This document shows, one piece after another, positions 20,553 through 38,041 of a stretch of DNA of 38,041 nt (the first letter of the stretch is position 1; each line of letters starts with the position of its first letter). This DNA is from a virus: positions 1-38,041 of IMG/VR virus record IMGVR_UViG_3300036806_000183; one strand, 5' to 3'. Made by a program: the position numbers and the translations under genes. The notes beneath the pieces are model-generated. The model was not told the origin of the DNA. It did no database searches and saw only the letters and a program-made list of their open reading frames with translations.

Positions 20553-20791
20553 GCGCGTCGCCGATCTGCGAACGGTGCAAGGCGCGCCACGCGCCCATGC
20601 TCGATTGCCTGGACGTCATCCTGACCGCGGTCGGCGGCCTGGTGCTCCGCGTCGGCCAGCCAGCGAGGTGCTCGAAATGCTCTTCGGAAATTTTCTTCCT
20701 CCGGCACGTCAACGGCAAGGCGGCGCCCTATGATCGCAACGGCGTCTCGCACTTCAGCACTTGCCCCCACGCCGAGGAGTTCCGGAGGTGA
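20549..20791 (+). CDS. Small zinc-binding phage protein
   Basis: An 80-residue protein from a TTG overlapping the previous stop. It has CERC and CSKC pairs plus the motif FLRHVNGKAAPYDRNG-SHFSTCP, a pattern found in many short phage proteins that carry a zinc-binding Cys/His set. It is the last gene before the terminator at 20822. Function unknown. Confidence 0.7.
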   Translation: MSASPICERCKARHAPMLDCLDVILTAVGGLVLRVGQPARCSKCSSEIFFLRHVNGKAAPYDRNGVSHFSTCPHAEEFRR

Positions 20792-20821
20792 CGCGGATTT
20801 ACACAGCTCCGTCCACAGGCC

Positions 20822-20855
20822 AAGCCCCTAGAACGTTGGGGGCTTCCGGCTTTTT
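20822..20855 (+). terminator. Terminator of the accessory operon
   Basis: AAGCCCC (20822-20828) pairs with GGGGCTT (20839-20845) around a 10-base loop, followed by CCGGCTTTTT. It ends the gene run 14570-20791. Confidence 0.65.
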
Positions 20856-20856
20856 G

Positions 20857-21071
20857 CACACACCCGGCTTTCACCGCCCAGTGCAACCCAGTGGAAAAAG
20901 GCGGCCGCAGCGTTTATTTCCACGGGCTTGCACTTGTTTTCCACCCAGTTTTACCCAGCCCGTTCACCCGGCAAACCCCGCAAGACACGACCACTTGGAG
21001 GAGTTATCCACTTTTGCACAGGCGCCTATGACTACGGTTCTAAGATACGCTTCTAGAAAGACCTCGTCATC
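20857..21071. other. Noncoding region, candidate replication origin
   Basis: A gene-free stretch, visibly richer in A and T than its surroundings. TTATCCACT (21004-21012) differs from the DnaA box TTATCCACA at one base. TTTTCCACC (20937-20945) and AGTGGAAAA (20890-20898, opposite strand) each differ at two. Further TCCAC cores occur at 20812 and 20919. A possible -10 TAAGAT (21041) lies 25 bases before the next ATG. No replication initiator gene is recognised in the genome, so host DnaA-dependent initiation is plausible. A Pro-rich frame crosses this region but looks noncoding. Confidence 0.4.
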
Positions 21072-26153: not shown

Positions 26154-26422
26154 AACAAACGTATTCAGTTGTGGTCGAGAGCGGTTCTTGCTCGATGGAT
26201 TATCAGCGCTGGGAGGAGAGGGCCAACTGCGGGCACGCCCACAGAACGATCGAGACCGCAGAAGCCTGCATGGAGAAGCTCACGCGCTGGTATTGCAACC
26301 ACGGTAGGGTGCAGGGTACTCCGTGCGCCGCTTGTATGGGCCGAGCCCAGGGGCACTCGACTTCCGCTCGCTGGTATAACGCGCGGATACACAACCAGAA
26401 TGGCGAGCGGGTGGTGCAATGA
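26150..26422 (+). CDS. Cys/His-rich hypothetical protein
   Basis: A 90-residue protein from a GTG coupled to the previous stop, with GGAGG upstream. Cysteine and histidine residues are paired (CGHAH, EACMEK, YCNHG, CAAC), consistent with one or two zinc sites. It resembles the sort of short zinc proteins scattered through this genome. Function unknown. Confidence 0.6.
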   Translation: MKQTYSVVVESGSCSMDYQRWEERANCGHAHRTIETAEACMEKLTRWYCNHGRVQGTPCAACMGRAQGHSTSARWYNARIHNQNGERVVQ

Positions 26423-26508
26423 ACGCCTTTGCCGCCCTTGGCCACGTCGAGCAGCTGATCGGGCTGATGTTCCTGGTCGGGGTGTCCTTGTACGCCCGCA
26501 GCCGCTAA
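26419..26508 (+). CDS. Possible 29-residue membrane peptide
   Basis: A very short frame ATGA-coupled to the preceding gene. Residues 8-25 are hydrophobic (VEQLIGLMFLVGVSLYA). No clear Shine-Dalgarno. It may be a coupled membrane peptide or chance. Confidence 0.35.
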   Translation: MNAFAALGHVEQLIGLMFLVGVSLYARSR

Positions 26509-26513
26509 GCCCC

Positions 26514-26529
26514 GTCAAATTTATTTGAC
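26514..26529. promoter_or_regulatory. Palindromic operator
   Basis: GTCAAAT-TT-ATTTGAC is a perfect 7+7 palindrome with a two-base centre, standing out as AT-rich in GC-rich DNA. Its right arm overlaps the -35 of the promoter at 26525, so a bound repressor would block transcription. Candidate binders encoded here are the ribbon-helix-helix protein and the winged-helix protein just downstream. Confidence 0.65.
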
Positions 26530-26554
26530 CCCGCCGCCCCCCGCGCAGTATGCT
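26525..26554 (+). promoter_or_regulatory. Sigma-70-like promoter
   Basis: TTGACC (26525-26530) and TATGCT (26549-26554) are 18 bases apart, the best promoter match in the window. Transcription would begin near 26561 and read into the winged-helix/methylase pair. Confidence 0.62.
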
Positions 26555-26574
26555 CGGGGGGCTTTCCCGTTTTT
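26536..26574 (+). terminator. Terminator overlapping the promoter
   Basis: GCCCCCCG (26536-26543) pairs with CGGGGGGC (26555-26562), 8 bp, followed by TTTCCCGTTTTT. It would end transcripts from the small-gene run. The -10 box of the promoter lies in its loop. Confidence 0.65.
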
Positions 26575-26597
26575 GCCACACAATCTCTGGAGGTCCC

Positions 26598-27056
26598 ATG
26601 GCCAAGCGGCCTAACACCATCAAGTGCGAGATAGTAAAGGCGCCGGCAGGCCTCGTCTTCGCCGAGGGCTTCACCGGGCGCAAAAGCCTGTACCGCGACA
26701 AGCTCTTCCTGGCGCTGCAGCAGGACTCGGTCCTGCGGGTGGCGGCCGGCGATATATACCAGGTGAACCAGTTCCGCGCAGCCGCGAGGAAGGCCAGGCT
26801 GAAGGTGGTCATCGCTGCGGCCGGCGACTGGCTCTATATCAAACCGATCCAGCCGACCGAGGGCTGGAAGGCGCTGCTGCTCCTGCTGCGCGAACCGCGG
26901 ACGATGGAGGAGCTCCGCGCCAAGAAGATTCCGGACCTGGACCTGGGCACGGAGCTGGCCAAGATGCGCAGCGAGGGCCACGCGCACGTGATCAAGCAGC
27001 GCGGCCTCGAATGCTGGGTGCTGACCGAGAAGGGCCTCGACCTGGTGGCGGCGTGA
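26598..27056 (+). CDS. Winged-helix-like protein paired with a methylase
   Basis: A 152-residue protein with CTCTGGAGG five bases before its ATG. Residues 1-90 are alpha/beta (KCEIVKAPAGLVFAEGF, LYRDKLFLALQQ). Residues 94-150 have a winged-helix pattern: WKALLLLLREPRTMEELR, LGTELAKMRSEGHAH, and a wing ending in LECWVLTEKG. It could be the repressor for the palindrome 70 bases upstream and thereby control the methylase, with which it overlaps by four bases. The regulatory role is inference. Confidence 0.68.
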   Translation: MAKRPNTIKCEIVKAPAGLVFAEGFTGRKSLYRDKLFLALQQDSVLRVAAGDIYQVNQFRAAARKARLKVVIAAAGDWLYIKPIQPTEGWKALLLLLREPRTMEELRAKKIPDLDLGTELAKMRSEGHAHVIKQRGLECWVLTEKGLDLVAA

Positions 27057-28330
27057 CGATCGAGCTGTGGCCGCTGGACCGTATCAAGCCGTATCCAGGC
27101 AACCCGCGTAAGATTCCGGAGAGCGCGATCAAGAAGGTGATGGCCAGCCTCCTGGAGTTCGGCTGGCAGCAACCCATCGTCGTCGACAAGGACGGTGTGA
27201 TCATCGTCGGGCACACCAGGCGGGAGGCCGCCAGGCGCCTGGGCTGGTCCGAGGCGCCCGTCCACATCGCGGCGAACCTGACGCCCGAGCAGGCCCGCCA
27301 GTACCGCCTGGCGGACAACCGCACGAACGAGGAATCGGCCTGGGACCAGGGGCTGCTCGGCGCCGAGCTGCGCGACCTGATCGCCGCCGGCGCCGACACC
27401 GGGTTGACGGGCTTCGATCCCAACGAGCTGGAGCAGCTCTCGGCATCGGCCGCCACGCTGCCCGACGAAGCGGCCCCGGCGCCGCCTGTCGAACCCACCG
27501 CCAGGGCGGGCGATCTATGGTCGCTGGGCCCGCACCGCGTGCTGTGCGGCGACGCTACCAGTCGGGAGGCGGTCGAGGCGCTGCTGGCCGGCCATAGCCC
27601 GCGCCTAATGGTCACCGACCCCCCCTATGGAATCGAGCTGGACCAAAACTGGAGACACGAAGCCGGTCTGCACAGGCGCGGTGCTGGCGATCGAACCGCC
27701 GGCCATCAGAACACGCAGATAGAGGGCGACAGCCGCAGCGACTGGTCAGAAGCGTTCGGGCTGGTGGCATCGATCGAGGTGGCCTATGTTTGGCATGCCA
27801 GCCGCTTCACAGACGTGATCCTTCAAGGGCTGCTGCGGCTCGGGTTCCTTTATCCGCAGCAGATCATCTGGAGTAAGCACAGCACGATTCCGATGCGGAC
27901 CCATTACTGGTTTTCTCACGAACCATGCTGGTACGTGAGGAAGAAAAATGCAGCCTGGTACGGCAAGCCGGGTGCGGGTAACACGACGGTGTGGGAAGCG
28001 CCGTCGCCGAAGCGAAACTCCGCCAAAGAGAAAGCCTTCGATCATCCCAACCAGAAGCCGATCGAATTGGCACGCAAGCCGCTGCGCAACCACACCAAGA
28101 AGGGCGAGCTGCTCTATGACCCGTTCCTCGGGTCCGGCACCACGCTGATGGCGTGCGAGGAGCTGGGGCGCGTCTGCGCTGGAATGGAGATCGATCCGCG
28201 GTTCGTCGACGTCGTGATCCTGCGATGGCAGGAGCTCAGCGGGAAGGAAGCCACGCTCGCCGGCCGCTCCTTCGCGGCGGTCGCTAAAGAGCGCGCGGCG
28301 CACCGGGCCCGTGATAGTATGTCCGCATGA
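27053..28330 (+). CDS. DNA methyltransferase with N-terminal ParB-like domain
   Basis: A 425-residue protein from a GTG coupled to the previous gene. Residues 1-90 are a ParB/Srx-like domain (YPGNPRKI, SLLEFGWQQPIVVD, VGHTRREAARRLG, RLADNRTNE). Residues 155-405 are an N4-cytosine/N6-adenine methylase: TDPPYG (188-193), HPNQKPIEL, then DPFLGSGTT (about 356-364) as the SAM-binding loop and AGMEIDPRFVD. DPPY before FxGxG indicates the beta class. No cognate restriction enzyme is adjacent, so it is probably an orphan methylase that protects phage DNA or marks it for regulation. Confidence 0.9.
   Translation: MTIELWPLDRIKPYPGNPRKIPESAIKKVMASLLEFGWQQPIVVDKDGVIIVGHTRREAARRLGWSEAPVHIAANLTPEQARQYRLADNRTNEESAWDQGLLGAELRDLIAAGADTGLTGFDPNELEQLSASAATLPDEAAPAPPVEPTARAGDLWSLGPHRVLCGDATSREAVEALLAGHSPRLMVTDPPYGIELDQNWRHEAGLHRRGAGDRTAGHQNTQIEGDSRSDWSEAFGLVASIEVAYVWHASRFTDVILQGLLRLGFLYPQQIIWSKHSTIPMRTHYWFSHEPCWYVRKKNAAWYGKPGAGNTTVWEAPSPKRNSAKEKAFDHPNQKPIELARKPLRNHTKKGELLYDPFLGSGTTLMACEELGRVCAGMEIDPRFVDVVILRWQELSGKEATLAGRSFAAVAKERAAHRARDSMSA
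28312..28320 (+). promoter_or_regulatory. Extended -10 before a leaderless start (TGATAGTAT)
   Basis: TGA-TAGTAT is an extended -10; TAGTAT ends six bases before the ATG at 28327, and no Shine-Dalgarno precedes the start. No -35 seen. Confidence 0.45.
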
Positions 28331-37328: not shown

Positions 37329-37509
37329 CCAGCCCAACCAGGCCGGCCAGCCAACTCGTAAGGAATCCTTACCAGTTGACGACGAGCGGGCCGTCGACCA
37401 GGGGGAGCGCGAGCTACCCCTGGAGACGGCCGTCGTCGGCGCCGATCGGGAACGCGCGGTAACCCGCTCCAGGGGTTTGTTGAGTTGTACGAGAAAATCG
37501 TACAGCTGA
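37318..37509 (+). CDS. Doubtful small ORF after the capsid
   Basis: A 63-residue frame whose ATG lies within the last codons of the capsid gene. It is Arg/Glu/Ser-rich and lacks hydrophobic pattern. It runs straight through several perfect inverted repeats, which argues that the DNA is regulatory; it has no clear Shine-Dalgarno. Probably not a gene. Confidence 0.2.
   Translation: MSASQPNQAGQPTRKESLPVDDERAVDQGERELPLETAVVGADRERAVTRSRGLLSCTRKSYS
37416..37480 (+). terminator. Terminator-like structure after the capsid gene
   Basis: ACCCCTGGAG (37416-37425) pairs perfectly with CTCCAGGGGT (37467-37476) around a 41-base structured loop; TTTGTTG follows. Placement after the most expressed gene mirrors the terminator after the tail tube. 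Confidence 0.6.
37483..37507 (+). other. Hairpin with GAAAA loop
   Basis: AGTTGTACGA pairs with TCGTACAGCT (10 bp with one G-U) around GAAAA. It may stabilise the capsid mRNA 3' end or bind a protein. Confidence 0.55.
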
Positions 37510-37540
37510 GGATGGAGTAAGCGGACCCGCTAGAGCGTCG

Positions 37541-37549
37541 TGTTATATT
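37541..37549 (+). promoter_or_regulatory. Extended -10 promoter TGTTATATT
   Basis: TGT-TATATT matches an extended -10. No -35 is obvious 17 bases upstream. It would give a leader of about 100 bases before the connector gene. Confidence 0.5.
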
Positions 37550-37656
37550 CCCTTTGAGGGTGGAAGCGGTGTCAACCAGAGAGGGCGCCGCGGATATCGT
37601 CGGGGGGCGGGGGGTCTGGTTCCCGGCCAGGCCCCTTCCCTTTTGTGAGGAGACCC

Positions 37657-38041
37657 ATGGGAACCCAGCAGATCAGTCGCGGCGACTTCTCGATCGGACT
37701 TCTGCAGGGTCCGGCCAGCGAACCGCTTACGCTCCAACAGGCCAAGGAGCACCTTCGGCTGCCCGTCGACATGACGGACTTCGATAACAAGCTGAACCTG
37801 TTCATTCCCGCCGCGCGCGCCTACCTGGAGAACGGCTGGGGCATCCGCTGCGTGACGCAGAAGGTCGAGGTGGCCTATCAAGCGTTCCCGGCAGAGGACC
37901 GCTTCCGGCTTCCCATCTGGCCCGTGCAATCGTGCGACTACTTCACGTTCGAGGACACCCTCGGCAACGTGAACCCGCTGGTGGTGGGCGCCACGGGCGA
38001 CGCTTGCGTGCAGGTCCTGACGCGCCTGAACCGGAAGCCCT
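37657..38041 (+). CDS. Head-tail connector, gp6-like (N-terminal part)
   Basis: Start ATG preceded by GTGAGGAG at five bases. The first 128 residues run to the window end and continue at position 165 after circular joining. PLTLQQAKEHLRLP followed by DFDNKLNLFIPAARAYLEN is the diagnostic helical core of gp6-like / phiE125 gp8 connector proteins, including the early LTLxxAKxHLR signature. It sits downstream of the capsid, as expected. Confidence 0.9.
   Translation, partial: MGTQQISRGDFSIGLLQGPASEPLTLQQAKEHLRLPVDMTDFDNKLNLFIPAARAYLENGWGIRCVTQKVEVAYQAFPAEDRFRLPIWPVQSCDYFTFEDTLGNVNPLVVGATGDACVQVLTRLNRKP
37878..38041. repeat. Contig-end overlap, right copy
   Basis: Identical to bases 1-164 except TT at 38004-38005 for CG at 127-128. 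See the left copy. Biological terminal redundancy is not indicated because the connector frame runs on without a break when the copies are merged. Confidence 0.93.

Follow-up and report, generated by a model that had tools for sequence, protein, structure and literature searches.

The 61 bases at positions 26514–26574 of a phage genome record (IMG/VR IMGVR_UViG_3300036806_000183; the window is the whole stretch analysed, 38 041 nt with 66% GC) are best explained as an insulating junction between two transcription units, at which a palindrome-bound dimer, likeliest that of the protein encoded at 26598, controls the promoter of the downstream unit; we give this reading a probability of about 0.5. 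The compact junction of promoter, operator and terminator is probably functional and, as far as can be seen, its arrangement is peculiar to this phage.

Signals sharing one intergenic gap

The junction and the genes around it contain the following features (window coordinates):

26420–26509, plus strand: predicted ORF of 29 aa, the last short ORF of the upstream cluster; its stop ends 4 bases before the palindrome
26514–26529, no strand: operator-like palindrome GTCAAAT-TT-ATTTGAC, centred at about −39.5 from the proposed start
26525–26530, plus strand: −35 hexamer TTGACC, 5/6 match, sharing bases with the palindrome's right arm
26536–26562, plus strand: terminator-like hairpin GCCCCCCG-C-GCA-GTA-TGC-T-CGGGGGGC, identified by folds and terminator score
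26549–26554, plus strand: −10 hexamer TATGCT, 4/6 match, spacer 18, in the hairpin loop
26556–26561, plus strand: G run, proposed transcription start, up to 7 bases past the −10, in the hairpin 3′ arm
26563–26574, plus strand: T-rich tail TTTCCCGTTTTT of the terminator, directly 3′ of the hairpin
26589–26594, plus strand: ribosome-binding site GGAGGT, just ahead of the ATG at 26598
26598–27056, plus strand: orphan protein of 152 aa, candidate regulator with a C-terminal winged helix of MarR/PadR type (predicted fold)
27053–28330, plus strand: DNA methylase, ParB_N and N6_N4_Mtase, phrog_498 (profile matches)

All of these signals, and their overlap, were read from the sequence. The palindrome has 7-base arms around an asymmetric central TT (7-2-7), and its right arm has TTGAC in common with the −35 hexamer; a perfect palindrome overlapping the −35, the starting point of the original prediction, is indeed present. 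When composition is ignored, perfect inverted repeats with 7-bp arms are common in the window (33 rows, nested ones included). An AT-rich repeat of the palindrome's size occurs just once in the whole window, while shuffled genomes contain 0.14 on average; the chance of an AT-rich 7-2-7 repeat within this 88-bp gap is ∼0.0002.

The two hexamers have sigma-70-type geometry (a spacer of 18 nt, with 16–18 nt accepted) and match at 9 of 12 positions; there is no extended TG at the −10. Genome-wide, 9/12 matches are not rare (4 found; the expectation is 1.6 for one half and 2.1 for the other), and an overlap of repeat and promoter appeared somewhere in 7 of 60 simulated genomes. As neither the match nor the overlap is remarkable at the scale of the genome, the weight rests on position directly before a start codon: all signals are ordered within one gap, ahead of a good ribosome-binding site.

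In the hairpin, GCCCCCCG (26536–26543) pairs with CGGGGGGC (26555–26562) around a loop of 11 nt, which contains a further GCA/TGC stem as well as the −10. The hairpin ending at 26562 scored 30.6 and ranked second among 609 candidates on both strands (d'Aubenton-type score); its RNA fold has −23.3 kcal/mol (z −2.9), and its DNA fold a z of −3.9. A stable GC-rich hairpin followed by the T-rich tract TTTCCCGTTTTT is what is expected of an intrinsic terminator; the tract is broken by CCCG, which makes the efficiency of termination uncertain. Among the other five best plus-strand hairpins, four (37640, 19064, 20850 and 28936) fall between likely genes, 8824 being the exception; hairpin punctuation between gene blocks appears to be a habit of this phage. 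No Rfam family was found in the window.

Intrinsic terminators and local promoters were mapped in the transcriptome of phage LUZ100 (PMC10134795). As with terminators between phage transcription units, a GC hairpin with a T-rich tail separates two gene clusters here, and a promoter is placed where they meet; the difference is that the −10 is inside the hairpin loop, and the signals share bases rather than adjoin. Our literature search returned nothing direct on overlapping promoter–terminator designs in phages.

A possible mechanism and its candidate regulator

The GC hairpin and its T-rich tail would work as an intrinsic terminator for transcripts of the upstream genes. Nested in it would be a sigma-70-type promoter with a start in the 3′ arm, at about 26556–26561; since a transcript started there would not have the 5′ arm, it could not form the terminator that stops upstream transcripts and would escape the same hairpin. 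A start in the 3′ arm would also explain the overlap of promoter and terminator with no need for cruciform extrusion. The earlier proposal of a −10 within the loop of a GC-rich hairpin following the upstream operon agrees with the positions found; extrusion of the hairpin, also raised there, is not needed for an open promoter complex, as RNA polymerase itself melts the −10. A single-stranded hairpin promoter of the N4 or F-plasmid type was also rejected, as double-stranded promoter geometry suffices, and no virion RNA polymerase was apparent among the proteins identified in this phage. We rejected as well control via slippage on the G run at the start or via a leader folded over the ribosome-binding site; the leader folds no better than shuffled sequences.

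A dimer on the palindrome, covering the −35, would govern access of RNA polymerase to the promoter. With its centre near −39.5, the site would suit either repression or activation, repression being the likelier. The likeliest binder would be the winged-helix protein of 26598, the first in its unit, and the unit of winged-helix and methylase genes would then be autoregulated, with control perhaps extending to packaging genes further downstream.

The first downstream gene had been described as winged-helix-like, and the predicted fold supports this. For the whole 26598 protein AlphaFold gave a pLDDT of 39, with no usable model for the N-terminal 80 residues. The C-terminal 72 residues (81–152) modelled alone form a winged helix, H-H-H-beta-wing-beta, with a pLDDT of 85 in the best of five models (48–66 in the other four). 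The best Foldseek match of this C-terminal model is ZitR (E 8.5e-4); MarR and PadR proteins align to it, Z reaching 11.1 for 71 of the 72 residues. At the sequence level, no usable match came from Pfam, PHROGs, NCBIfam or PDB sequences, and with no Pfam or NCBIfam match up to E 1, no MarR/PadR family model recognizes the protein; nor were usable relatives found in IMG/VR, GTDB genomes, phages, plasmids or 31 related phage records. The protein is thus similar to MarR/PadR regulators by predicted fold alone and is not assigned to the family.

Dimers of proteins with the MarR/PadR winged-helix fold commonly occupy short palindromes in or close to the promoter of their own gene. As in autoregulated MarR/PadR operons, a palindrome over the −35 directly precedes a gene of predicted winged-helix fold; unlike in MarR/PadR repressors, the winged helix makes the C-terminus of a longer orphan protein missed by sequence families. 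Autoregulation by the 26598 product is plausible, the one tie between protein and palindrome being their adjacency; as the collections searched yielded no relative of the protein and no homologous site, comparison cannot provide another. Counting against the model are the −10 with only 4/6 matches, the long spacer, the interrupted T tract and a palindrome conserved in no relative. One could speculate, tentatively, that a unit of methylase and packaging genes is governed by an orphan regulator, made up of a new N-terminal part and a MarR-like winged helix, through a promoter with its −10 in the loop of the upstream terminator, one hairpin both ending the old transcript and marking the start of the new one.

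If true, the model would show a way for a small phage genome to insulate a block of genes: a stop and the next start share bases while one operator sets the level. The new 26598 protein, together with a short, well-defined candidate operator, is a clean and cheap test case for autoregulation. General understanding of phage gene control would not change; this would be a compact but ordinary gene switch of a known kind.

Relatives and alternative readings

The gene order around the junction is HNH, DUF3489, small genes, winged-helix protein, methylase, methyltransferase, glycosyltransferase-like protein, TerS, TerL, portal, protease and capsid. A related locus, L004, resembles this neighbourhood, with HNH, methylase, TerS and TerL in succession, and the methylase family often sits upstream of terminase genes.

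Related phages were searched, as suggested originally, for the palindrome upstream of the winged-helix–methylase pair: no relative carries it, and the pairing is absent too. The palindrome is missing from the nearest methylase relatives (L002–L005, L040, L077, L078 and L081), and in 57 related loci the inverted repeats upstream of the methylase numbered 21 versus 14.5 expected, a count inflated by one poly-A/T tract and near chance. Unlike in the other phrog_498 loci examined, a recognizable winged-helix gene precedes the methylase here, as judged by a crude sequence-pattern test. The collections searched contained no site homologous to the palindrome region, and no close relative covers the site.

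The exact palindrome had 58 matches in viral contigs, nearly all in AT-richer genomes and most within open frames. Two unrelated viral contigs, L124 (1294–1353) and L134 (1712–1746), have GTCAAATTTATTTGAC twice in tandem in intergenic DNA; there it looks like a genuine operator, bound by some regulator, with no evident link to this phage. With its CCCC flank the palindrome had 18 genome and 3 viral matches, and among the matches looked at none was beside a related gene. Three unrelated MAGs of bacteria (L141, L147 and L157), of which two are Firmicutes, have a version extended by G/C runs (GGGGTCAAATNNATTTGACCCC) in intergenic DNA, where it is perhaps a terminator or operator.

The same junction could have its palindrome bound by another regulator of the phage or by a host regulator; we consider this a possible but lesser candidate, about half as probable as the main reading. 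The binder might be, for example, the ribbon-helix-helix-like 14570 product (a weak match), the DUF3489 protein encoded 0.5 kb upstream or a host factor; the site may even be that of a late-unit activator, as a centre near −39.5 fits a class II activator site and methylase and terminase genes follow downstream. However, the palindrome does not recur in this genome upstream of 14570 or of another gene, and the first downstream gene already supplies a candidate DNA-binding protein. With ribbon-helix-helix-like, ParB/KorB-like and DUF3489 proteins present, the earlier description of the phage as otherwise lacking a repressor cannot be established; about half of the scanned phage proteins match nothing.

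It is rather unlikely that the hairpin is a real terminator while promoter and palindrome are coincidental, i.e. weak hexamers next to a chance or unrelated repeat. The genome-wide frequency of such promoter matches, the overlaps in simulated genomes and the lack of conservation of the palindrome among relatives would agree with coincidence; the ∼0.0002 chance for the AT-rich repeat in this gap and the correct order of elements before a ribosome-binding site and ATG speak against it.

The second downstream gene was expected to encode a ParB-domain methylase, and this was confirmed; the enzyme is of the N6/N4 type and matches phrog_498 (E 2e-117 over residues 1–422) and Pfam N6_N4_Mtase (E 8e-22), with ParB_N at E 1e-4, below Pfam's own cut-off. 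It has the domain make-up of phage phrog_498 orphan methylases and, as in L004, is placed between HNH and terminase genes. Its position as second gene of the unit would suit the autoregulated methylation switch suggested originally, in which methylation of the promoter or palindrome by the enzyme would alter the enzyme's own expression. Such a switch is not supported, and we regard it as very improbable: GATC, GANTC and CCWGG, common motifs that may not be the target of this methylase, are absent from 26501–26600, the promoter included, and the family is widespread (903 phage records with a match), with no such promoter or partner in the loci examined. An ordinary anti-restriction explanation is available for this common phage type; in a survey of cryoconite phages, no other known genes were as frequent in variable islands as orphan methylases, which were interpreted as protection from host restriction (PMC7468147).

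Hardly any more credible is the idea that the palindrome serves the ParB/KorB-like protein of the phage (15109–17007) as a parS-like site: the protein has ParB_N and KorB-type HTH_ParB domains and the genome holds one 16-bp palindrome, but this is a single copy 9.5 kb from the ParB gene and overlaps a promoter, the scanned proteins included no evident ParA and, to our knowledge, the palindrome resembles no known parS or KorB site.

Other features of the genome

The ParB/KorB-like protein is extended at its C-terminus by a long stretch, and no ParA was seen beside its gene; it could point to a plasmid-like lifestyle.

The ends of the window, 1–164 and 37878–38041, form a 164-base direct repeat whose copies differ at two positions, and L082 derives from a near-identical contig that crosses the join of the two ends. 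Given the repeat and this contig, the record, listed with no completeness value, probably represents a whole phage genome that maps as a circle of ∼37 877 bases.

A gap of 328 bases after the capsid gene (37329–37656) contains two inverted repeats, GTAAGGAATCCTTAC at 37358–37372 and TGTACGA-GAAAA-TCGTACA at 37486–37504; the top-ranked terminator-like hairpin of the genome ends 17 bases before the ATG at 37657. Finally, ∼280 non-coding bases at 20780–21070 have a strong hairpin (20819–20850) and repeated words TTTTCCAC, TTATCCAC and TTTTGCACA; this region is a possible replication origin.
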